A DNA stretch of 64,000 nt, taken from contig JAJNBG010000002.1 in the NCBI GenBank assembly GCA_021155905.1, positions 1 to 64,000 on the forward strand, written 5' to 3'. The notes under the pieces are model-generated. The model searched no databases. It worked only from the letters and a program-made list of their open reading frames with translations, and was not told the origin of the DNA. A program made the translations under genes and the position numbers. Positions 1,892-32,039 of the stretch are shown piece by piece (position 1 is the first letter of the stretch; each line of letters opens with the position of its first letter). The stretch is from Bacteroidota bacterium. Its GTDB lineage: Bacteria; Bacteroidota; Bacteroidia; B-17B0; Aurantibacillaceae.

Positions 1892-1945
1892 GGGATTAAA
1901 GGGACGGAAGAGAGAAAAGAGACTTAATGATTTCCTGTAAAACTT

Positions 1946-1970
1946 GTCACTTCGAGCGGAGTCGAGAAGC
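1946..1970 (-). repeat. Dispersed palindromic element, CTTC/GAAG arms (copy A)
   Basis: On the minus strand: arm CTTC, core TCGACTCCGCTC, arm GAAG, then TGAC. The 25-nt unit is identical, in opposite orientation, to copy E at 8512-8536. It lies between the regulator and 2TM genes. Confidence 0.8.
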
Positions 1971-2481: not shown

Positions 2482-3318
2482 ATGAGTTTCTATGATCTTC
2501 CGAAAGATAAACGGGCTGCATTGGTTAATGAGATCAAGACAGCTATTTTATCTGAAATAAAACCCTTCGACTCCGCTCAGGGTTCGAAGCTTAAGAACAC
2601 CCTTGAGTATTTCTCGAACGAGGATACATACATCCGTAAAGCAGCTTATTTATCCATTGGCAGAATTTATTTAGAGAATGATGGTTTACGTAAAACCATC
2701 ATTCTTATTTTAGATAAGTTATTAAAAGAGGAAAAAGCTCATATTCGCCAAACCGTGATCAACGCGGCAGGTGAAATAGGAAAAACAGATTTTAAGATCG
2801 TACAACATTTCTTTGAGAAAGGATTATTTGATGAACACCATTCCGTTCGGAATGCCGTAATCGGTTCAATAAAAAAGATGGGAGAGAAGAACCCTATTCC
2901 TGTGTTAAAATGGTCGGAGCAATATTTACATCACGAGAATAAAGAGATCCGTCGTGAGATTTGTCATGGCATTGAACTGCGGGGTAGAACCCATCCCCAG
3001 GATATTTTACCCTTATTGAAAGTATTACAACATGATAAGACTTCACGCGTACGAACAACGCTCGTTCATGTCATTGGGCAGATTGCTTATAAGAAAGGCT
3101 GTTTACAAACGGTAATTGCCGATCTCAATACCTGGGAAAATAAAGAACTCACTAATGATGCCATTGAAGAAATCATAGACGTGCATTATCGCTACCGTGA
3201 TTTTTCAATACTAACGCAGAAAGAGGCTATTGCTTATATTGAGAAGCATTATAAGACTTCTCGACTTCCCATCCGCCGGCTGGCGGATGGGGCATCACCA
3301 GGTGACAGAATTATTTAA
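2482..3318 (+). CDS. HEAT-repeat protein with in-frame repeat insertions
   Basis: A 278-residue cytoplasmic alpha-solenoid. Paired helices of HEAT/PBS-lyase type recur: 'IRKAAYLSIGRI', 'HIRQTVINAAGEIGK', 'SVRNAVIGSIKKMG', 'EIRREICHGIELRG', 'RVRTTLVHVIGQIA'. Such proteins are protein-binding scaffolds; no enzyme motif is visible. Two parts look foreign. Residues 28-34 (PFDSAQG) are encoded by repeat copy B, the same 20 nt found in aroC. The C-terminal tail 'LPIRRLADGASPGDRII' is encoded by another dispersed repeat with a strong hairpin, so the original stop was probably lost or replaced. I chose the ATG at 2482 because the upstream 24 codons run through the nested palindrome. Confidence 0.8.
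   Translation: MSFYDLPKDKRAALVNEIKTAILSEIKPFDSAQGSKLKNTLEYFSNEDTYIRKAAYLSIGRIYLENDGLRKTIILILDKLLKEEKAHIRQTVINAAGEIGKTDFKIVQHFFEKGLFDEHHSVRNAVIGSIKKMGEKNPIPVLKWSEQYLHHENKEIRREICHGIELRGRTHPQDILPLLKVLQHDKTSRVRTTLVHVIGQIAYKKGCLQTVIADLNTWENKELTNDAIEEIIDVHYRYRDFSILTQKEAIAYIEKHYKTSRLPIRRLADGASPGDRII
2563..2582 (+). repeat. Dispersed palindromic element, CCCT/AGGG arms (copy B, in coding sequence)
   Basis: Arm CCCT (2563-2566), core TCGACTCCGCTC (2567-2578), arm AGGG (2579-2582). It is identical to copy H inside aroC and read in the same frame, giving PFDSAQG. Confidence 0.85.
3258..3307. repeat. Dispersed repeat with 10-bp hairpin at the 3' end of the HEAT gene
   Basis: CCCATCCGCC (3268-3277) pairs perfectly with GGCGGATGGG (3282-3291) around a GGCT loop. 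It is flanked by TTCTCGACT on the left and GGTGACA on the right, which resemble the outer parts of the TCGACTC family, so it looks like a variant with a different core. Confidence 0.65.
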
Positions 3319-7197: not shown

Positions 7198-7986
7198 TTA
7201 AGAATTCAGTTTCTTATTCCCCTGCTTTTTAATGACTTCCATTTCTACCTGCAGGTTACGCAACATGCTCATAATGCTACCTACATTTAATTCTTCTTCA
7301 CGGTAATCGGTCATGTTAATGCAACAGGTATATTCCCATACTTCTAACACGTCTTTTAAATTGACATTAAACGGCGGGTATATTTTGTTATCGGAATGGC
7401 ATTCCATAAATCCTTTTTTAGTGTTCACATTAAAGATACGTTTATACGAAATCCCATCTTCTTTGGTCACGACTATATAAGTTTGCCCGTTTTTAATATC
7501 CTCAACTCTATCAAGGTATTTAGCTACTACAAATGAGCCTTCCTTAATTGGCGGCATACTGTCGCCTTTAATTGGAAAAGCACGGTGTTTGCCTGAAGGT
7601 AAAAATGGTAATTTCATACGCGGTAATCGTTCCATGTATTCAGGATCGGCGTATCCCCTTAAATAGCCGGCACTGGCTTTTAAAGGAACTAACTCTACCG
7701 CATCACGGCCATCTTCGTCAATTACGACAGGAAAAAGCATACGGTTCTTCCCAATTTTCATTAAGCCGTCAAGATTGGTTTTGGTCAAATCACCACGTAC
7801 CAATGCATCAACCGCTATGTGAAAAAAATCGGAGATCGCAATTAATAAGTCAATCGACGGTTCGTTACGGTTTTCTTCGTAAGCGCCAAGGCGGGAACGG
7901 GTGATGCCGAGATTATCTGCCAGTTGCTCCTGCGACAGGCCTTTTTGCAAACGCAGGAATTTTAAATTACTAAATATTTTGCTCAT
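7198..7986 (-). CDS. XRE-family repressor with S24 (LexA/CI-like) peptidase domain
   Basis: A 262-residue regulator. Residues 5-60 are an XRE helix-turn-helix ('LRLQKGLSQEQLADNLG', 'ITRSRLGAYEENRNEPS'). The C-terminal half is an S24 fold: 'FPIKGDSMPPIKEGSFVVA' holds the nucleophile serine and 'EDGISYKRIF' the catalytic lysine. An Ala-Gly pair sits in 'KASAGYLRGY', at the place where LexA and CI self-cleave. It may therefore be inactivated by RecA-stimulated autocleavage, though many Bacteroidota members of this family have not been shown to cleave. Two matching palindromes in its upstream region suggest autorepression. It is alone on its transcript, with no phage genes nearby, so it is more likely a chromosomal stress regulator than a prophage repressor. 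Confidence 0.88.
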   Translation of the reverse strand: MSKIFSNLKFLRLQKGLSQEQLADNLGITRSRLGAYEENRNEPSIDLLIAISDFFHIAVDALVRGDLTKTNLDGLMKIGKNRMLFPVVIDEDGRDAVELVPLKASAGYLRGYADPEYMERLPRMKLPFLPSGKHRAFPIKGDSMPPIKEGSFVVAKYLDRVEDIKNGQTYIVVTKEDGISYKRIFNVNTKKGFMECHSDNKIYPPFNVNLKDVLEVWEYTCCINMTDYREEELNVGSIMSMLRNLQVEMEVIKKQGNKKLNS

Positions 7987-8037: not shown

Positions 8038-8161
8038 TTTTGTAAAAGGTTTTTGTTAATTTTTTAAATTTGTTGTTAGTGCCATGGGTTTTGTGGATGG
8101 GTTTCTCCTGTCTACGAAACCTTTGTTTTTAGACGGGATAATTACTTCTGTTCGGTTGTCC

Positions 8162-8181
8162 GTTCGAGCGGAGTCGAGAAC
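8162..8181 (-). repeat. Dispersed palindromic element, GTTC/GAAC arms (copy D, left flank of the GIY-YIG unit)
   Basis: On the minus strand: GTTC, core TCGACTCCGCTC, GAAC. Bases 8163-8180 are an exact inverted copy of 8514-8531. Confidence 0.85.
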
Positions 8182-8190
8182 CAGTAGAAT

Positions 8191-8542
8191 ATGAGAGTAA
8201 AATATTTATATGTTTATATATTAAAATGTAGTGACGGAACTTATTATACGGCATAACTAATAATATTGAAAAAAGGTTCCGCAGCATAACGAAGGAACAA
8301 ATAAGGAAGCTTATACTTATTCAAGGTGTCCAGTTGAACTTGTATTTTGCGAATTATTTACTGATTATAATTTAGCAATACAATGGGAAACCGGAATAAA
8401 GAAATGGGGTTCTAAAAAGAAAGAAGCTTTGATAAACTCTGATTGGAAACGATTGCGGGAAGAGGCTCAATGTAAGAATGAGCGTTCACATATTTTTTTA
8501 GATAGTGGAAAGCTTCTCGACTCCGCTCGAAGTGACAATTAA
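8191..8542 (+). pseudogene. GIY-YIG endonuclease pseudogene (two frameshifts)
   Basis: The small single-domain GIY-YIG nuclease family (UvrC-like, about 100 aa) is readable in three frames. Frame 1 from ATG 8191 gives MRVKYLYVYILKCSDGTYYT. After a missing base near 8250 the next frame gives GITNNIEKRF. After a second missing base near 8282 the third frame gives HNEGTNKEAYTYSRCPVELV and 'AIQWETGIKKWGSKKKEALI', ending at TAA 8542. The YVYIL...YYTGIT pair, the arginine of 'EKRF' and the glutamate of 'QWETGIKKW' are family hallmarks. The last codons lie in repeat copy E and read LLDSARSD. Both lesions are single-base losses at GG and CC runs, so sequencing error is possible; if real, the nuclease is dead. 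Exact inverted repeats lie on both sides. Confidence 0.82.
8512..8536 (+). repeat. Dispersed palindromic element, CTTC/GAAG arms (copy E, right flank of the GIY-YIG unit)
   Basis: CTTC (8513-8516), core TCGACTCCGCTC (8517-8528), GAAG (8529-8532). It is identical in reverse complement to copy A, and inverted relative to copy D. Confidence 0.85.
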
Positions 8543-8729: not shown

Positions 8730-9818
8730 TTGAGAACGTCCTGGAAATATTTGTTAAGTCTTAGTCTCCTCTTTCAGTTGATCACTTCCTGTTTTGCGCC
8801 TCTTAAATTTGAAACCGCTAATCCTAATGCTCCAAAACCGGGCCCACCGGATTATGCTTTACATAAATACTGGTTGGCATTGCCGGAGATGACCGATAGC
8901 GCCGACCTTGTCATAAAAAACTCGGCATTAAACGATCTTCAGGCTTCTGCTAAAGCAGATGTTTTTTACGTTCATCCTACCACCTATATTTATGGAAAGG
9001 CGTGGAATTCCAATATCAATGATCCGGCTGGCCTGTTAACAGAAAGTTCTCCCGTGAAAAACCAGGCGAGCATTTTTAATGGCAGCTGCAGGGTTTATGC
9101 ACCGCGGTACAGACAGGCAGAATTCCTGACCTATGTAGCTTTTTACAAAAAACAGGCGCAGGTATTCGACGTTGCTTATAACGATGTGAAAAAAGCTTTT
9201 TTATATTACATCAATAACTATAATAACGGCCGTCCGTTTATCATTGCATCTCATAGCCAGGGTACTGACCACGCTATCCGCTTGTGCCGGGAACTGATTG
9301 AAAAAGATTCTTCATTACGTAAACGCTTTGTAGTAGCTTACCTGGTGGGCTCTGTAATTAAAGAAGGAGATTTTACTGATTTGGTTCCCTGTGATTCTGC
9401 TAATCAAACAGATTGCTATGTGACATGGAATACGACCAGATGGGGTGAGGTTACTTTTTTCGGAAAGCCGGTTTTAAATGCGGTTTGTGTAAATCCACTC
9501 AGCTGGAAGCGAAGCAGAGAAACAATTTCTCATGAGTATAACCAGGGCGGAGTATCGACGTCGTTTGATAAAATAGACAGGGGTTTAACCGGTGCCAAAA
9601 TTTCTCCAAATGGTCTTTTATGGGTGCATAAACCAAAAAGAAGCAAGAAGGAATACCCAAGAATTAATAAACGCAACTATCATTCCGTAGACTATAATTG
9701 GTTTTACATGAATGTCAGGGAAAATGTGAGGGACAGAATTGATTCGTATTTTTTAGGCAGAGATACAGTTGACCGGTCACTAACCAACAGAGACTCTCAT
9801 GCAGAGATCCCAAGGTAG
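8730..9818 (+). CDS. DUF3089 lipoprotein, alpha/beta-hydrolase-like
   Basis: A 362-residue protein with a lipoprotein signal: 'WKYLLSLSLLFQLITSCF' with Cys21 as the likely lipidated residue, so membrane-anchored outside the cytoplasm. The body matches the DUF3089 family: 'ADVFYVHPTTYIYGKAWN', 'RVYAPRYRQAEF', and the nucleophile elbow 'IIASHSQGTDHA' (S-H-S-Q-G), as in alpha/beta hydrolases. The likely activity is a lipase or esterase, but no substrate is known. The start is a TTG at 8730; no in-frame ATG gives a signal peptide, so TTG is the best choice. It converges on elaA with an 11-nt gap. The upstream gap carries the GIY-YIG pseudogene unit. Confidence 0.85.
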   Translation: MRTSWKYLLSLSLLFQLITSCFAPLKFETANPNAPKPGPPDYALHKYWLALPEMTDSADLVIKNSALNDLQASAKADVFYVHPTTYIYGKAWNSNINDPAGLLTESSPVKNQASIFNGSCRVYAPRYRQAEFLTYVAFYKKQAQVFDVAYNDVKKAFLYYINNYNNGRPFIIASHSQGTDHAIRLCRELIEKDSSLRKRFVVAYLVGSVIKEGDFTDLVPCDSANQTDCYVTWNTTRWGEVTFFGKPVLNAVCVNPLSWKRSRETISHEYNQGGVSTSFDKIDRGLTGAKISPNGLLWVHKPKRSKKEYPRINKRNYHSVDYNWFYMNVRENVRDRIDSYFLGRDTVDRSLTNRDSHAEIPR

Positions 9819-19600: not shown

Positions 19601-21731
19601 TAGGTGCACCGGTACAAGGAGGAGCAGGTGTAATATTTACAAAATAATCAATGTTAGTACCATCTGAGTAGTTGGCGGTACATGGATCAAAACCCGGGAA
19701 AACACTGCTAATGGATTCCATTTTTAAACGCAACCTTGTATTACCACCCATGGCTGAAAGCGGCACGGTGAATGGCATTATTATAGTTCCATTAACGGAG
19801 TCCCCTACGTTCATATATTCTGCTGAATCAAAAATTCCGTTTTGGTTATAATCCAGCCAGGCTCCCACATATGCTCTTGGGAAAGGCGACGCGATAGTTG
19901 CCGTGATGGTATAAGTTTGATTGGCATTTAAAGATAAAGACATGGAAGGCGTACTTGTCAGGTCATAATAGTTGTCTCCTGCATTACAGGCAGGAGTATA
20001 GGAAACACCCGCAACGGTTACGTCTGTCATTTGTGCACCATTAGAACAGGTAACATAATCAGGCACACAATAGCAGGTTGTCGGCAAATTCTGTACAACG
20101 ACTACCGGAGTAGAAGTAGCAGAAATTGCACTGTTTGTACAGGTAAGTACGCATTGATAATGAGTTGTAGCCGTTTGTGAAGAAACCGCTAAAGGAACGT
20201 TGGGTTGAGAAACTCCCAGGTCGGTCCACAAAGAACCGTCCGGAGACGATTGCCATTGATAGTTGATGCCACTAACCGCATCATTACCTGCTAAATAAAG
20301 AGTATAAGGTGTATTGGTACAAACATTAGTCAAAGATGATACGGCACTTCCGCCGTTCGGCGTTAGAGAACAGGCCGGCGCTGCGGTAATATTCACTTTA
20401 TAATCTAAAATCTGGCCGAGGCTTCCCGGATTGTTAGCACATGGATTAAGGTTTGTTCCTGGATAAGCGTAATAAGCATCAAGCATTAAACGCATTCTTA
20501 CCGTTCCTGTTGGTGCGGTAAAAGGAACATTCACATAGGTCGAGTAAGTTCCGGATGCACCAAAACCTAAAGAGGTAAATTCATTGCTGTCAAATACTCC
20601 ATTTTGATCATAATCGATCCATGCTCCCATGATACCATCACCATTAAAACCGCTGATACCTGATGTTGCTGATAAAGTATAGGTGTTTCCTGCGACTAAA
20701 TTAATACTGGTATAGTTACTCATGGTTGAATCAGAAAACCCGTATGAATCACAATTCGTGTTTTGAGAAATAACATTGGCTATAGAAAACTCAGCTATGG
20801 AATCCTGTGTACAATCTACCATGAAATTTGGCCAGTTAGGCATGCAGTAACAGTTTATTAATGGATTCAGGTTTACACTGACAGTTGTTGATGTATCTGA
20901 TTGGGTGGAGGAAGTACAAGTGCTGATACATCTGTATAATAGGCTTTGAGGTATACTAGAAACGGAATATCCCCAACTGATCTGTTGTGTCCCCATATTA
21001 GACCACACAGTTCCATCAACAGAAGATTGCCATTGGTAGGTCATTCCTGATTCCAGCGTATTACCAACAAGATCAAGGTTAAACGCTGTGTTGGGGCAAA
21101 TCAATGTAGATGAAGAAATCGCGTTTCCTGCATATGGCGTTCCGGAACATGATGGCAACGGTAATACGGTGATCTCATAATCTTCTGTTTCACCATAATT
21201 CGAGTTTGTTGTCCCACATGCATCTGATGCTCCGGGTCCCGGGGACGTATCGCTCGATCTTAAACGGATGCGGGTTTGTCCTGCTAAAGCGTTATAAGGG
21301 ATTATGAAACTTCCACTGAAGTACGCCGTTGCCAAAGCCCCCACATTAGGAGAAACACCCATAAATTCTGACGCACTGAAGGTGCCATCCTGATTCCAGT
21401 CACCCCACACACCTATATGGCAGGTGCCATATGTACCGCCACCAACATTCAAATTATAAGGTGTGCCAATAGTTAAAGACGTGGTAGTTGCACCGGTATT
21501 AGGAAAAAAAGTATAAAAAGGGCTTGATGCTCCTGCTGAAGGGTTGTTTAAAGAAGTTCCAACGAACTCCACTAAAGAAATCCAATCTCCGGATCCTGTG
21601 CCTGTACCATATGAAGTGGAGCAATAAACCTGGGCATTACCAGTGTTTGAAAAAGTCCCGAGGATTAGCATTAAAACCAAAGCACAAGCCTTACTTTTTT
21701 TGAAAACGGATTTGGGTAGAGTTATTCTCAT
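16656..21731 (-). CDS. Giant T9SS-secreted protein with GEVED and SprB repeats
   Basis: A 1691-residue exported surface protein (signal peptide up to about residue 33, 'GTFSNTGNAQVYC'). Four GEVED-type domains ('GVWGDWNQDGTF', 'GETEDYEITV', 'AWIDYDQNGVFDSNEF') alternate with about four Ig-like modules ('YQWQSSVDGTVWSNMG'). Then come three SprB-like repeats ('SCDGSAEAMASGGVAPYLYS') and one further PKD-like unit. Near residues 1395-1600 lies a module shared with the next protein ('EGNGFGKRMGTGFKT', 'IIVKGGKNPGGQM'). The last 80 residues are a T9SS type A sorting domain ('VFPNPASSKVTIQYSL', 'LASGMYFIKININGAE'). In this class such modules serve adhesion or gliding, but no specific role is proved. 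It lies in the same direction as the other giant gene, with a terminator between. Confidence 0.9.
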   Translation of the reverse strand: MRITLPKSVFKKSKACALVLMLILGTFSNTGNAQVYCSTSYGTGTGSGDWISLVEFVGTSLNNPSAGASSPFYTFFPNTGATTTSLTIGTPYNLNVGGGTYGTCHIGVWGDWNQDGTFSASEFMGVSPNVGALATAYFSGSFIIPYNALAGQTRIRLRSSDTSPGPGASDACGTTNSNYGETEDYEITVLPLPSCSGTPYAGNAISSSTLICPNTAFNLDLVGNTLESGMTYQWQSSVDGTVWSNMGTQQISWGYSVSSIPQSLLYRCISTCTSSTQSDTSTTVSVNLNPLINCYCMPNWPNFMVDCTQDSIAEFSIANVISQNTNCDSYGFSDSTMSNYTSINLVAGNTYTLSATSGISGFNGDGIMGAWIDYDQNGVFDSNEFTSLGFGASGTYSTYVNVPFTAPTGTVRMRLMLDAYYAYPGTNLNPCANNPGSLGQILDYKVNITAAPACSLTPNGGSAVSSLTNVCTNTPYTLYLAGNDAVSGINYQWQSSPDGSLWTDLGVSQPNVPLAVSSQTATTHYQCVLTCTNSAISATSTPVVVVQNLPTTCYCVPDYVTCSNGAQMTDVTVAGVSYTPACNAGDNYYDLTSTPSMSLSLNANQTYTITATIASPFPRAYVGAWLDYNQNGIFDSAEYMNVGDSVNGTIIMPFTVPLSAMGGNTRLRLKMESISSVFPGFDPCTANYSDGTNIDYFVNITPAPPCTGAPNAGDATSSYTAICANTTLKLNLVNSDIVSNLSYQWQYSTDNVAWFNLGTAQTDFPYEVWSQTMTTHYRCITTCTSSAMSGTSTPITVTQNPLMACYCIPGQMDCASGDEINYVAFATMTNTSACSGPIGFEDFTGTVASSTISAGQSYTMTTVLGYTSGEHVSVWIDYDQNGTFDSNEYTFLGSNSGNDTIAGAISIPVTANVGLTRMRVRNISGNSLNSYEACITPQGGGAKQIGTGFTTYGETEDYLVTIMPPDCGLVSFPNAISASGASIICLGQSTALDLAPVLPVATGITFQWMSSTGGAFGNEGIASGTTAINVMPATTSYYYCDIMCNGSSVLLSDTVAVTVDIVTASVTGSATACFSACNGSASVTPVSGSGPFVYSWSPAPATTPSVTGLCAGIYSVTVMDINGCASTNTVMITEPTALTAVTSATNTLCSGSCDGSAEAMASGGVAPYLYSWTPVPGTTSSITGLCAGNYTVSIMDANSCMITETVTITEPTPVTASATQTNVTCNGLNNGMASVLANGGTSAYTYQWLPSGGTNDTEINLAPGTYTVQIKDANNCILNQTVTITEPGAFSASISGSSSSICEQLEDTLTSTVGGGIAPFTYSWNELPSTIVSVNATYVYTTSVGTHSYNLTVTDASNCTAISNTLNISVNPSSNFSGMVTTNPSIPVAGRVVLYKYLPFFTKFDSVAGQNIAANGSFLFNSFTSGTYIIKAIPTATNMQVTYGDSAVNWKTARQIIHGCAVNDVQDINVKALGTFTATGTGLLSGHIKEGNGFGKRMGTGFKTAAPGNPIGGIIVKGGKNPGGQMFVQTMTDTSGAYVLQGLPPNGFGESYFILVDIPGLDTNGTYDGLIINITNNQYTNLDFIVDSAKINPINTVSVNDISAKEHSIKVFPNPASSKVTIQYSLKDDANVKIELFDVFGKSVRTVLNQGEQSMDQHSYSVPLDGLASGMYFIKININGAESTIKLSVTN

Positions 21732-21994: not shown

Positions 21995-24900
21995 CTATTC
22001 GCTTACTATTAGTTTAATAATATTTTCAGAATTATTTATCGTTAATTTAATGAAATATATTCCTGAACCAAAGTGCTCCGTATTGATTTTGTGAGTGTAT
22101 TTATCTTTTTCCTGGCGTGCGTCGGATATACTCTGCATTTTATGACCGATAACATCAAAAATTTCGATCTGAACTTCTGCAGGCTCAAGCAGTTCATATT
22201 GAATGATCGTATATTGACGCGCAGGATTAGGGTAAACAATTATTTTATTTTCCAGTAAAATGTTTTCCGTTGGAACAAAGGTTATGTTGTTAGGGTTGAT
22301 ATACATGGAATCCACATAAAAATTTAAATTATTGAATTGTGTGCTGCCGGTAGACACAACAACGTGGTACGTGCCATTGGTATCTAATCCGGGAATATCC
22401 ACATAAACAAAGTAGCTTTCAGATCCGGTATTTAATGGTAAGCCTGATAACGTATAAGTTCCTGTTGAAGGATCTGTTAATGTTTGAACAAGCATTTGTC
22501 CACCGGGGTTTTTACCTCCTTTTACAATAATTCCCCCAATTGGATTACCCGGAACCATTGTTTTAAAAGAGGTATTCATCCTTTGTCCGAATCCGTTTCC
22601 TTCTGTAATTGTACCTGTTAATACTCCGGGACCCATCACAAAGTTTCCAAGGGCCATCAGTTTAATGTTTTGAGCAGAGTTAGTTGTGCAACCATGATTA
22701 ATTACAGTTGCATCCTGCCAGCTGATGGCACTGTCTCCATATGTTACCTGGATGTTTGTAGCACTTGGAACAGCTCTTACCACATAGAGGGAACTGTCAA
22801 TGTTAGAGAATGAATATGAACCGGCAAATGGAACAGTGGTGATTGAATCCCATTGACTTAAAGCAGACACGTATTTGTACAAAATCACATCACCTGTTGT
22901 TGCGCCGGTAGTGCTTGTAATTACACCACTGATGCTTTTTGATGGTATAATGGAAACAGTGGTGATTAAAGAAGAAAGACACGAACCGTTAATTCCCGAC
23001 ACAGTATAAGTAGTTGTTACCGAAGGGGTGACACTAATGCCCGGCGAGGCTGCACCTGTGTTCCAGGTGTAGGAAGTTGCTCCGCTTGCTGTTAAATTAG
23101 AAGTTGAACCATTACAGATATTGAGGTTACCGGTAACCGAAAGTACCGGTGAGCTATTTACTGTGAGAGTAAGGGTCGTTACATCGGAGCATCCGTTGGC
23201 TCCTGTTCCTGTTACACTATAGGTTGTTGAGGTAACGGGTGAAACTACTATCGATGAAGAGGTTGGCCCTGAACTCCAGATATAACTTACCGCACCTGTT
23301 GCTGTTAAAGTACTCTGGCTTCCTGAACATATAGTGGACGGAGATGCATTAACCGAAATGGACGGCATTACGACATCCTGCATGATGAATACATTGTTTG
23401 AAAAAGAGCAGCCATTAACCGTATTGGTTATTGACACCGAGTAACTTCCGGGTGATACAAAAGCAGGGGAAGATGTATTTTCAGTCCCCGGAATGATACC
23501 ACCTGCAGGCGACCAGCTGAACATGACGGTTGACGGATTGGCCGTTGCGGTTATGCTTACAGTTGGCGAAAGGCATGTAATAGTTGCAGAAGTCGATGAT
23601 AATGATGCCGTTGGTACAGCCATATCTGACACAACGCTAATGGTCGCCATAGCAGCACATCCATTTAGAGTATTTGTAACAACAACTGTAAACACATCTG
23701 CGGCAAGAGCCACGGGATTATTAACCGAGTAATTACTTAACGTTCCCGCAGTCGAAGACGTCCATGAGTATGACGTAAAAGGATCATCGGTACTGGATGT
23801 ATTTAAAGTAGCCGTTGGACTTGCACAGGTAATGGTTGGAGTACTGCCCGTATTAATGGTAGGGATGGAAGTATTAGAAAAAACTGCGACGGTCGACGAT
23901 GCCGTACATCCATTTACCGGATTAGTGGCAGTCAATGTATAGATGCCTGCAGCACAAGCAGCTGTAGAAAGAGTATTTGTGGAACCACAAACGCCGCCGG
24001 TCCAGCTGAATGCCGCATTAGTCGGCGTAGTTATACTTCCGTTCAATGGTACTGAAAATGAAATACAGGACATGGTTTGATTTGAGCCGGCGCTCAGACC
24101 TGCAGGCATTGTTGTGTTTTGAGAAACAGATGCTGTAGTTGAATAAGTACATCCATTAGATGGATTTATTACAGTTAATGAATACATTCCTGCACCAACG
24201 GCAATGGCATTTTGAGAATTTGTTCCGCTCGAAATAGATCCTCCTCCTGGAGCTGTCCATGTGTAATTTACGCCCGCCAAACTAGAATTTAAATTGACTG
24301 TTGACGTTGTACAGGTAATAGTACCGGTTGTACTCGCCGTTGTTGTTGGGGTTATCGTATTTTGACTCACAATCTGAGAACCCATTGAAACACAGCCGTT
24401 GACAGTATTAGTAACCGTGTAATTTTTTACACCACCACTACTTACAGTAATTGTTCCGGTAGTATTTCCGGATACAATACCTGTTCCGGACCATGAGTAG
24501 GATACCGGAGTGACCGTTGTAGAAATGCCGACTGCTACTAAAGTATTGGTACAGGTCAACGTATTTGTTACTGGATTATTTGTTACAACTGGTGCGCCAG
24601 AACTAGGGGACACCTGAACTGTTCCTTGTTTGGAACACCCATTTACCGGATTGGTAACCGTTAATGTATATATATTAGCTGCGTTAGCTGTGGCAGTATA
24701 ACTTGTTGCTCCGGATAAAACACCGCCTGTCCAGGCACCAGTACAGTTAGTCGGAGTTGCGACACCGGATATGGAAACTGTAGGTGATGCGCAGGAAAGT
24801 GTTTGAGTACCGGTAACAGTAAGCGTTGGGACAACCGTATTTTGAGAAACACAGGTATTAGCAGTAACTGTACATCCGTTCGATATATTAGTAACAGTTA

Positions 24901-27900
24901 AATTATAACATCCCGGTAAATTTATTATCGGGTTAGCAGTTGTGGATCCTGCTACTATGCCAGGACCGCTCCAGTTATATGTTCCGCCGCCGGTTCCTGA
25001 TAGAGCCATCGTTGTTGTTGTGCATGTTAATGTTCCCGAGTTTGAAGCAGATGCAGTTGGAGGAGTTGTATTTTGTGAAACAGCGGTAGTCGCGGACGCA
25101 GCACATCCATTTACGGGATTGGTCACAGATAAAGTATAAATTCCCAGGGCATTTGCCGCTGTATTTTGAGTTGTTGGAGATCCTGAAATTCCGGGCCCAG
25201 ACCATGAATAGTTCATGCCAACAGGTCCGCCATTTAATGCAACCGTTAATGTACTACAGGTTAAAGTTCCTGTTGTGCTTGCCGTAGTTGAAGGCGAAGT
25301 TGTGTTCTGGTTAACAGCTGTTGTTGCAGTGGCAGAACAACCATTCGCAGAAGTAACGGTTAAAGAATAAATTCCTCCTTTGTTGACAGTGGCCGATGAT
25401 GTTGTACCTCCGGAAACAATACCCGGCCCACTCCAGCTATAGGTTCCCCCACCTGTTCCTGTAACAGAAACAGTTGCAATAGTACAGGTCAATGTGCCTG
25501 AGTTCGATGCAGTTGGTGAAGGAGCAGTTGTATTTTGAGTCACTGCTGTTGTTGCCATACCTGAGCATCCGGTTCCCGAATTAGTAACAGTCACTGTATA
25601 GTTCCCCGGTAAATTAGCCGATGTATTTTGAGTGGTTGTAGGTCCGGCAATTCCGGGGCCTGACCATAAATAAGTTGCGCCCGCAGCAAATCCACTGCTT
25701 AACCCCACTGTTGTTGCCGAACAGGTTAACGTACCTGATGTACTGGCCGTGGCAATAGGATTAGAATTTACAGTTAAGCTTAAAGTTTTAGTGTTTATAC
25801 ATCCGGCAGCACTTCTTCCGATTACTGTATAGTTTGTAGTTGTGGTTGGAGAAACAACAACACTTGACCCAGTTAAACTGCCCGGGTTCCAGGTATAAGT
25901 TGAAGCACCGGAAGCAGTTAACGAAGAAGCTGATCCCGCGCATATGGCAGTAGGATTACTGAGCGCAGTTACCGTCGGGTTAGGGCTTACATTTAAAGTA
26001 ACTGTTTTAGTGTTTGAGCATCCGGTGCCAGCCATTCCTGTTACCGTATATGTGGTAGTCACGGTTGGTGTTACAGCAATTGTAACACTGGTTATGCTTC
26101 CAGGATTCCAGGTATAAGATATTGCTCCTGAAGCAGTTAAAGTAGCAGTAGAACCAACACACATCGTAGTAGGATTACTAACCGCATTGATGGTTGGATT
26201 AGGATTTACAGTTACAGTTTTAAAGTCGGAGTTGGTACATCCTGTAAGGGTATTTGTTCCTACTACCGTATAAGTAGTTGTAGTAAAAGGAGTCACATTT
26301 TGATTTGCTCCGACAAAATTACCGGGATTCCAGGTATAGGTATGTGCTCCGGTTGCCGTATTCATAGTTGAGCCACCATTACAAATTGTATTATCAAGGC
26401 CGGCAGACACAACTGGCAATGCATTTACTGTTATCATCACTGTATTGGTTGCCACACATCCATTGGAATCCGTTACCGTAACGGTGTATGTTTGAGTAGA
26501 CGTTGGGTTTGCTGTAACTACAGAAGATGTTGTTGAGCTAAGAGATGCACCGGGTGACCAGCTATAAGTATAAGCAGGTACACCGTTTGATGCTGTAATA
26601 GTAAGGGTTGTATTAGCTCCGTTGCAAATGGTCATATTTCCTGTAAAAGAAGTATTGATAGAAGGAGGATTTACTAAAGAACCTATTGTAGAGGCCGTGC
26701 ATCCGTTCAGATCAGTTGTCACAACAGAATACGTACCGGCGTATTGACCGGAAATATTTTGTGTATTTTGATTCCCGGGGCTCCAGGTATAAGTATAAGG
26801 AGAAGTGCCTCCTGAGGGAGTTGACGAAACCATTCCATCATTACTTCCAAAACAGCTTGGGTTTGTGGTAACCATGGAAATGGAAGGTGATACAACAGTA
26901 AGAGTCGCGGTATTGGAGACGATGTTTTTACATCCAACATTCACAATACACCTTAATTTATTTTGGTTCATACTGGGAATCGCTGTAAAACTGGTTACAG
27001 AAGTATTGGTGTTTGTATATGGGAATACAGCATTAGAAAAAGTACCTGTGGTCGCAGAGTGCCATTGGTAGCTGATTGGCACCCCGCCAACAACGTTTAA
27101 CGACATTGTTCCTGCTGTGTTATTACATTTAACACTGGAAACAGGTTGAGAGGATATCCCTATCGTACTGGATAAAGTTTTTACATTTAACGCATTATTT
27201 GCCGGTTGATCTACATAAAAAAAGTATGGAGTCCCGGTATAATCTATTTCAATATTAGGATTGAGGGAAGTAGCACTGTTCAGGTACCCTCCTCCAATCA
27301 CATTGCTCCACGTAGGTACGCCTGTATATTTATAAGCAACCGGATAGGGAGGAGTACTCAAAATACCTGTAATGTAAGGAACATCAACCGGGTCCAGTTC
27401 AAGATCAAAAACATTACCCGAACTTAATCCGGTTATAGCAGAGCCAACAGGTGTCCAGGTTGCTCCGTCGAATTTTTGAACCACAGTGTTTCCTCCTGTT
27501 TCTGTATAACCTAAATAGAAATCACCGTTACTCGCAAGTTTAATTTTTGAGTTGGTTGCATTTGCTCCTAGTGTGGACATCAACACCCAGGCAGCACCAT
27601 TGTATTTCATGACAGTGGTCTTGTTGGTTTGAGTACCATCCTGGAAAGCTAATACCGGCATATTAGAATTGGTAACGATCAAGGAATTAAAGGCGCCAAC
27701 TCCTGGAGATACAACTCCTGAGCCAACGGCAGCCCATACGGATGAGCCGCTGTTCCATTTTTTTACAGTTGATTTATTTGAGTTAGCAACATCTGTGTAG
27801 GCAATATACTCATCGCCAGCTGGATCTGAAGTAATACAAAGATTGGTAACAGCTCCTGTTGAAACAGCAGCACCCTGCTGCAATAATACGGCTCCTGATA

Positions 27901-30944: not shown

Positions 30945-32039
30945 TTAAATTTTTGAGGTCTTGTTTCTTAGGATATGATCAACGAGCACTAAGGCCGCCA
31001 TACTTTCAACGATAGGTACCGCTCGCGGTAAAACACAAGGATCGTGACGGCCTTTGCCTTTTATGGTCGTTTCATTTCCGTCTTTGTCAATACTTTGCTG
31101 GTCCTGCATGATGGTGGCAACCGGTTTAAAAGCCACGTTGAAATAAATGTCTTCACCATTGCTTATACCGCCCTGGATACCACCACTGTGATTGGTTAAA
31201 GTCCTGACTTTTTTGTCACCCTGAGCGGAGTCGAAGGGTAAAAACACGTCATTCATTTCAGAGCCCTTGAAATTTACGGAATTGAAACCTTCGCCGTATT
31301 CAAAACCTTTTACTGCATTAATACTGAGCATCGCTTTACCGAGGTCAGCGTGTAATTTATCGAATACGGGTTCTCCCAAACCAATAGGAGTTCCTTTCAC
31401 CACGCAGCTTACAATACCACCAATGGTATCTCCGTCTTTACGGACATCTTCGATATAGCTTACCATTTTATAAGCCGTGGCCGCATCCGGACAACGAATG
31501 ATTGATTCGTCTGTTTTAGTCAGATCTAAATCTTTATATGATTTCTCCAGTTTAATGGGGCCAACCTGGCTGACATATCCCTGAACAGAAATGTTAAGGT
31601 GGTTTAAATATAATTTGGCAATGGCACCGCCAACAATACGGCAGGCTGTTTCGCGGGCAGATGAGCGTCCGCCACCCCGGTAATCCCTTATGCCATATTT
31701 TTCCTGGTAGGTAAAATCAGCATGTGATGGACGAAAGGTATCTTTGATATGTTCGTAATCGGTGCTTTTTTGATTTGTATTTTCAATAGTAAATCCAATC
31801 GGATGTCCGGTTGTTTTGCCTTCAAAAATTCCGGAAAGAAAATTCACTTTGTCTTCTTCTTTTCTTTGGGTGGTAATATAAGATTGCCCCGGTTTACGAC
31901 GCTGCAGTTCTTTTTGAATAAATTCTATGTCAATTTCCAGTCCTGCAGGACAACCGTCCAGTATTCCGCCAATAGCCGCACCATGGCTTTCACCAAAAGT
32001 GGTTAACCGAAATAAAGTACCGAAGGTATTGCCTGCCAT
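30945..32039 (-). CDS. aroC: Chorismate synthase (with repeat-encoded insertion)
   Basis: A 364-residue enzyme for the last shikimate-pathway step, EPSP to chorismate, using reduced FMN in the cytoplasm. Signatures are '[20 protein letters not shown]', '[13 protein letters not shown]' and '[16 protein letters not shown]'. The frame extends 20 codons upstream, but the ATG at 32039 gives the standard '[20 protein letters not shown]' start. Residues 268-275 are PFDSAQGD, from repeat copy H, where other chorismate synthases have a short loop before '(K)VRT.TN(H/R)SGG'. The insertion lies in a loop, so the enzyme is probably still active. It is first gene of a tight operon and divergent from hutI (72-nt gap). 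Confidence 0.95.
31215..31238 (-). repeat. Dispersed palindromic element, CCCT/AGGG arms (copy H, inside aroC)
   Basis: On the minus strand: CCCT, core TCGACTCCGCTC, AGGG, then TGAC. 20 nt (31219-31238) are identical to copy B, and it is read in the same codon frame. Confidence 0.9.

Follow-up and report, generated by a model that had tools for sequence, protein, structure and literature searches.

The window, a 64,000-nt stretch of a Bacteroidota genome, contains a broken GIY-YIG nuclease gene enclosed by inverted copies of a short palindromic repeat, which raises the question of whether an enzyme of this kind can spread the repeats that surround it. The question reaches beyond this locus. 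Di Nocera, De Gregorio and Rocco (2013, PMC3733652), in the portion of their study on which we draw, divided REPs into two superfamilies, GTAG and CGTC; RAYTs are associated with the GTAG REPs, and for the CGTC REPs that portion reports no associated transposase gene. Hosts of CGTC REPs named there include S. meliloti, A. lipoferum, N. aromaticivorans and Neisseria. The same portion equates dRS3 with CGTC-1, counts the RPE-4 and RPE-6 repeats among those with the CGTC tag, and describes a stem of 8–9 bp, nearly always with a complementary AT start, and mostly inverted (HH) dimers.

The unit in the window

The borders of the unit are best set from tag to tag, which gives 381 bp (8157–8537, forward strand) reading TGTC...GACA. 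It consists of a left REP-like repeat with its TGTC tag outward (8157–8182, forward strand), a GIY-YIG nuclease pseudogene, and a right REP-like repeat that is inverted, so that its TGTC tag also points outward (8512–8537, reverse strand). The preliminary description had reported exact 18-nt inverted arms (8163–8180 and 8514–8531), a GIY-YIG gene between them with its stop just past the right copy, and a nuclease broken twice, and all of this was confirmed. The arms can be extended to 25 nt at 92% identity (8156–8180 and 8514–8538). With the protein of an intact paralogue as query, tblastn finds the pseudogene (8191–8539, forward strand) in three frames, as pieces at 8191–8250 (80%), 8250–8276 (67%) and 8270–8515 (71%), with frame breaks near 8250 and at 8270–8276; the last frame ends at the TAA at 8540–8542. 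The unit is preceded by an HTH/LexA-like repressor gene, named from its open reading frame alone (7198–7986, reverse strand), and followed by an open reading frame of 362 aa (8730–9818, forward strand). Three solitary repeats lie elsewhere in the window: a copy at 1944–1970 (forward strand) whose 27 nt are identical to the right arm, inverted, and two repeats of a second stem type (CCCT/AGGG) at 2562–2583 (reverse strand) and, with a TGTCA tag, at 31213–31239 (forward strand). Separately, several imperfect direct-repeat families of 26–128 nt occur at 23000–26800, probably inside one long repeat-rich gene.

The genome of the window (G000; 4.06 Mb, 67 contigs, 94% complete) matches PF01541 in four places, namely two long open frames (618 and 498 aa), the window pseudogene, which scores slightly below the curated cut-off, and an intact short gene of 111 aa (1483–1815 of locus L001, contig C58) in a unit that ends in the same way as that of the window. 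The two units align at 76% identity over 396 columns, from the TTGTC of the left repeat to the GACA of the right one and not beyond. When 2.6 kb of window DNA was used as query, the borders fell at 8156–8537 against C58 and at 8156–8538 against a unit in the relative G069, as expected for a copied unit bounded by its repeats. Among the matches listed for G000, both clade-A GIY-YIG loci (clades are introduced below) are flanked by the core GAGCGNAGTCGA. The gene of the window unit and of its paralogue belongs to PF01541, not to the HUH/Y1 transposases, and G000, at 94% completeness, has no match to Y1_Tnp/RAYT (PF01797); for this genome, a RAYT acting from elsewhere as the mover was therefore rejected.

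The repeat and its copies

The core GAGCGNAGTCGA has 74 copies in G000 versus 2 for the reversed control, and a stricter pattern, TTCGAGCGNAGTCGAGAA, occurs in 38 places. We read the stem in 38 distinct copies out of the 74. Pairing between the four bases before the core and the four after it is complete in 31 of them, with a mean of 3.58 out of 4 versus 1.78 when the right arms are shuffled (maximum of 1000 shuffles, 2.42). Ten different fully paired stem sequences are present; the tag reads TGTCA in 28 and TGTC in 30 of the 38 copies. In the repeats of the window themselves, the stem beyond the core is four base pairs long and does not start with AT. As single-stranded DNA these two single repeats fold no better than shuffled sequences (z = -0.68 and +0.88), so that the pairing is visible in variation and not in energy, and an energetically stable hairpin is not supported for them. 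Most of the 74 cores are single; where two lie less than 100 bp apart, five of six pairs are inverted with tags outward, as in the unit.

The nuclease

PF01541 matches the intact paralogue with E = 6e-18 and is the sole Pfam domain in all three proteins tried, while NCBIfam models gave no match for the two proteins tried. Across 18 diverse proteins, Tyr8, Tyr19, Arg29 and Glu67 are invariant and His33 is nearly so; we take these to be the catalytic residues. In nine of 13 hand-picked pairs dN/dS is 0.02–0.14, the remaining pairs being identical or saturated, and on these ratios the nuclease is judged to be under purifying selection. By sequence, its nearest solved structures are UPF0213 proteins (best PDB matches 1zg2 and 1ywl), followed by the structure-specific nuclease SLX1. 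Copies with inner stops occur in G071, G047 and G058. A clade-C nuclease stretch of 102 codons is identical, with 0 differences, in two species (L057 in G070 and L069 in G080).

Inverted repeats beside related nuclease genes

Among 87 genomes of the family, one per species, the 111-aa protein has matches in 67. From the best 98 matches we took 90 loci; the eight omitted are the window copy and seven that are broken, partial or overlapping, and weaker matches were excluded. Each left flank was locally aligned with the reverse complement of the right flank, with a score of 14 as threshold. Inverted repeats were found beside 64 of the 90 GIY-YIG loci versus 3 of 30 cold-shock genes of the family. 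The preliminary description had proposed to test whether intact homologues are flanked by the same inverted repeats, and most of them are. When 15 loci from named replicons are added, 76 of 105 reach the threshold beside the gene versus 2 of 101 in distal windows about 400–600 bp away (four loci were dropped for short flanks). Of the 26 family loci below threshold, ten carry the same repeats in direct order on both sides (direct score >40), and two, L103 and L113, are members of a clade of shorter proteins (80 aa) that is seemingly without repeats; a further member, L102, passes barely, through an AT-rich match that is not a REP.

The 15 named loci come from a search of a plasmid collection with a clade-E protein, which gave 32 records, of which 15 were picked for different genera or records. 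Inverted repeats lie near the gene in 13 of these in a wider window and in 12 at threshold 14, where L131 falls out; L127 and L136 have none beside the nuclease. The flanked loci include members of Rhizobiaceae, Sphingomonadaceae, Azospirillum, Neisseria, where the repeat is dRS3, and Aeromonas, and their repeats are CGTC-type REPs: CGTCATCCTCGGGCTTGACCCGAGGATCC in Rhizobiaceae, CGTCATCCCCGCGAAGGCGGGGATCCAG in Azospirillum, CGTCGCCCCGTG.. in Novosphingobium, CGTCACCCCGGGCTTGACCCGGGGTCC in Sphingobium, and CGTCATTCCCGCG.. in Neisseria and Aeromonas. The tag varies: Sinorhizobium repeats carry CCTC, those of Planktothrix and Spirosoma TGTC. The pairing of nuclease and repeat thus recurs in relatives and in distant bacteria, and is more general than the window showed. 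On a plasmid of Planktothrix agardhii (L125), the record annotation places the nuclease between a type IIL restriction gene and DISARM drmA.

Nuclease clades and repeat types

The nucleases fall into clades, lettered here for this report, and by eye each has its own repeat: TGTCAnTTCGAGCGnAGTCGAGAA for clade A, a longer TTCGAGTAG..GTATCGAGAAC for B, CTGAGCGnAGTCGAAG for C, GGTGGCTGAG..TCGAAGCCACC for D, CGTCATTGCGAG..GAAGCAATCTC for E, GTCATGCTGAACTTGATTCAGCATCTC for F and TGTCATTTCGAGCGAAGCGAGAAATCT for G. The type-E repeat (CGTCATTGCG..) starts with AT, and so do many, though not all, of the repeats from Proteobacteria. In 5405 pairs of loci, each pair drawn from two different genomes, the similarity of the proteins correlates with that of the flanks (Mantel r = 0.46; largest of 500 permutations 0.11), versus 0.20 for distal windows. 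With a shared repeat defined as a score of at least 18, pairs with a protein similarity of 0.6–0.8 have a repeat in common in 44% of cases (distal 0.9%), and pairs below 0.4 in about 1% or less. Above 0.8 the figure is 88% of 43 pairs; distal windows match in 33% of these closest pairs, and relatedness thus contributes some background.

Repeat numbers follow the clades as well. Of the 13 genomes that have a clade-A nuclease (presence defined by E ≤4e-40; the gene of G071 contains a stop), 12 carry at least four type-A repeats, versus 24 of the 74 genomes without (Mann-Whitney on counts, 1e-6; Fisher on the split at four or more, 6e-5). For type-E repeats the numbers are 15 of 22 genomes with clade E (E ≤1.1e-28) versus 13 of 65 without (1e-5 and 6e-5, respectively), all these p values being too small because the species are related. 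Type-A repeats show no association with the clade-E nuclease (p = 0.33), and type-E repeats lean weakly toward clade A (p = 0.04). The preliminary description had proposed to test repeat number against the presence of the nuclease across strains. In our comparison, made between species and not strains, the association held clade by clade, with exceptions: 11 genomes have at least eight type-A repeats without a clade-A nuclease, and eight have at least eight type-E repeats without clade E. The 11 type-A-rich genomes argue for old relics or another source of the repeats. That repeat-rich genomes without the nuclease gene have lost it is only a guess; G075 retains a nuclease remnant with stops.

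Filled and empty sites

Presence and absence could be compared at several orthologous sites. At the site of the window, the upstream repressor gene was aligned in 17 relatives and the 230 nt past it were read, and none of the 17 has the window unit there. In G078 both neighbours, including the 362-aa reading frame as right-hand anchor, are kept, with 261 bp between the anchors versus 644 in the window; the difference of 383 bp compares with a unit of 381. In G069, the intergenic spot that follows this repressor gene is occupied by a clade-E unit (L186; contig C24, ~20600–21000), where the window has its clade-A unit. The spot after the repressor gene is a shared landing place in these two genomes.

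In the species pair G052/G053, aligned repeat sites are 88–98% identical. A clade-A unit of G052, together with an adjoining repeat pair, is absent in G053, where 29 bp stand against 613 between flanks that are 98% identical. To the left of this unit, about 35 bases (L045, ~1230–1260, compared with L200) diverge far more than the flank does, as if touched by repair. There are 71 core matches in G052 and 43 in G053, and among the matches listed for G053 none is a clade-A nuclease. When the site of the unit itself is excluded, 18 of 33 repeat sites of G052 have a partner among 27 sites of G053. Of 23 unpartnered sites in the two species, 11 could be placed by synteny and five of these aligned. 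The repeat is missing in the other species at L239, L266 and L272; at L242, the loop of a repeat that is whole in G052 contains, in G053, another TGTC palindrome; and at L245 the alignment is messy. The insertion at L239 (G052, contig C3, ~90330) is 109 bp, longer than the repeat alone, and comprises one repeat and other sequence. At L299 (G053, contig C2, ~253550), a further palindrome, TGTCCCGATAGCTATCGGGA, is inserted in a repeat loop and may be another family of the same kind.

Distant bacteria provide further cases. On Sphingobium plasmids the unit is present in L139, L147 and L143, the last of which has one base fewer inside the gene; the corresponding spot has a single palindrome, CGTCACCCCGGGTCAAGCCCGGGGTGACG, in L142, a near copy of it in L140, and none in L141, L178 and L179. 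This single palindrome corresponds to the outer halves of both flanking repeats joined together. In Azospirillum lipoferum 4B the unit lies between sufB and sufC, where A. ramasamyi and A. oryzae have none; strain B510 likewise has no such unit between these genes, and its spacer differs. Target-site duplications, which the preliminary description had proposed to look for and by which a classical insertion sequence would be recognized, were not seen by eye in the aligned filled and empty sites of the window, G052/G053, Sphingobium and Azospirillum.

Repeats also lie within repeats. Junctions at which TGTCANTTCGAGC runs directly into TGTCA, one mismatch being allowed, occur in 42 places in 14 of the 87 genomes (control, 0). 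This pattern detects one orientation only, and the shared orientation of the nested repeats was accordingly discarded as evidence. Of 34 lines read from 30 loci, seven have an intact or almost intact right half of the outer repeat, 13 have lost GNAGTC, and the others are ambiguous; the seven that retain the right half indicate insertion between GAGC and GNAGTC.

Discussion

The recurrent architecture, the cognate pairing, the duplication of unit-sized DNA within a genome, the presence and absence at orthologous sites and the repeats within repeats together suggest that the unit is a very small mobile element, dead in its window copy. Such an element would carry one gene, for a single-domain GIY-YIG nuclease of about 90–120 aa, between inverted REP-like repeats with their TGTC/CGTC tags outward. 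Each nuclease clade would recognize its own repeat, and the scattered solitary and paired repeats would be gene-less derivatives of the unit, as REPINs are of RAYT units. We regard the mobility of the unit and the cognate pairing of nuclease clade and repeat, as far as comparative sequence data can establish them, as very nearly certain. That the nuclease drives the spread of the unit and its repeats is the simplest reading and a probable one; the flanked homologues and the clade-specific repeat numbers support the earlier proposal that a single-domain GIY-YIG enzyme may spread a repeat in the manner of a RAYT. As for the mechanism, the putative nuclease might cut or nick the repeat, once folded, within the loop (in this family, between GAGC and GNAGTC), after which break repair by the host might fill the cut with a copy of another repeat or of the whole unit. 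Because GIY-YIG enzymes cleave DNA by hydrolysis, a break-and-copy route fits better than transposase-like strand transfer. We hold loop cutting followed by repair as a working model, with the chances of its being right and wrong about equal.

The association could also have arisen in other ways. It is very improbable that REPs merely fill intergenic gaps and happen to land beside any short gene: the repeats do lie between genes and 3 of 30 cold-shock flanks reach the threshold, but this low figure and the 2 of 101 distal windows led us to reject such an account for the bulk of the loci, and the cognate pairing and the coincidence of unit ends with tags likewise count against it. It might instead be supposed that the nuclease serves the host by trimming or removing REP cruciforms and that its gene is kept close to these substrates, the repeats spreading for some other reason. 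The kinship with UPF0213 and SLX1 structures and the purifying selection would suit such a role; the gene, however, has no fixed place, as the absence of the window unit in all 17 relatives that share the upstream gene indicates, and copies die where they stand, in the window as well as in G071, G047 and G058, so that we consider a host function quite improbable.

A homing endonuclease that parasitizes REPs moved by something else deserves more weight, although we think it unlikely. Such an enzyme would cut a repeat or a repeat pair, into which its gene would then be copied, and the flanking repeats would be its target and not its product. In favour of this, GIY-YIG homing enzymes are well known, the spot in Sphingobium has the full unit in some plasmids and in others one palindrome that joins the outer halves of both repeats, and other repeats interrupt repeats at a set point. 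Against it, G000 has no gene for another mover of the kind searched for, namely Y1_Tnp; repeat numbers track the cognate nuclease clade; and repeats and nuclease change together across clades.

The proposed element resembles several known systems. Like the REPIN/RAYT system, it has a single gene between inverted REPs, with scattered gene-less repeats and inverted pairs, and in RAYTs, too, the repeat type is specific to the enzyme clade, as it is with the GIY-YIG clades here. RAYTs, however, are HUH/Y1 tyrosine transposases associated with GTAG REPs, whereas here the enzyme comes from a different fold family, that of the GIY-YIG nucleases (PF01541), and the tag is TGTC/CGTC. In domain and size it is the same as the UPF0213 or YhbQ-type GIY-YIG proteins. 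GIY-YIG homing endonucleases and Penelope-type elements provide examples of a GIY-YIG nuclease that helps to spread its own DNA, as we propose, but here there is no intron and no reverse transcriptase, and dozens of short gene-less copies occur per genome. The repeats share with the CGTC superfamily a one-sided tag (CGTC, TGTC or CCTC), the hairpin and, in most of the few close pairs, an inverted arrangement, and they are found on both sides of the nuclease in hosts named for that superfamily, namely S. meliloti, A. lipoferum, N. aromaticivorans and Neisseria; the window repeat differs in its outer stem of 4 bp without an AT start, short of the 8–9 bp given for the superfamily.

Judging by titles and the beginnings of abstracts, and leaving aside preprints and most subscription journals, we found, among the papers listed, none that links a GIY-YIG nuclease with REP-type repeats. 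Three publications in which the title of the Di Nocera paper appears (RepRanger, 2025; HuH endonucleases, 2018; Coxiella MITEs, 2018) contain no word beginning with GIY, and the portion of a Moraxella paper that we consulted makes no such link. The single-domain GIY-YIG nuclease is, from the sequence comparisons, a strong candidate, and the best known to us, for the missing enzyme that spreads CGTC-type REPs, and hence a candidate answer to a question that has stood in print since 2013. More tentatively, and with the balance tilted slightly against it, one may imagine a class of minimal bacterial mobile elements that need no transposase, in which loop cutting by GIY-YIG enzymes and host repair made the whole CGTC/TGTC REP superfamily in several phyla, including the dRS3 of Neisseria.

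If the nuclease does spread its repeats, REP-type repeats have arisen together with no fewer than two unrelated types of enzyme, and a likely role would fall to many short proteins annotated just as 'GIY-YIG nuclease family protein'. A minor observation concerns such database entries: at L069, L088, L044 and L070 the nuclease frame runs into the right repeat and gains a tail, for example PSTSSG, and C-terminal tails encoded by repeats may mark units of this kind in databases.
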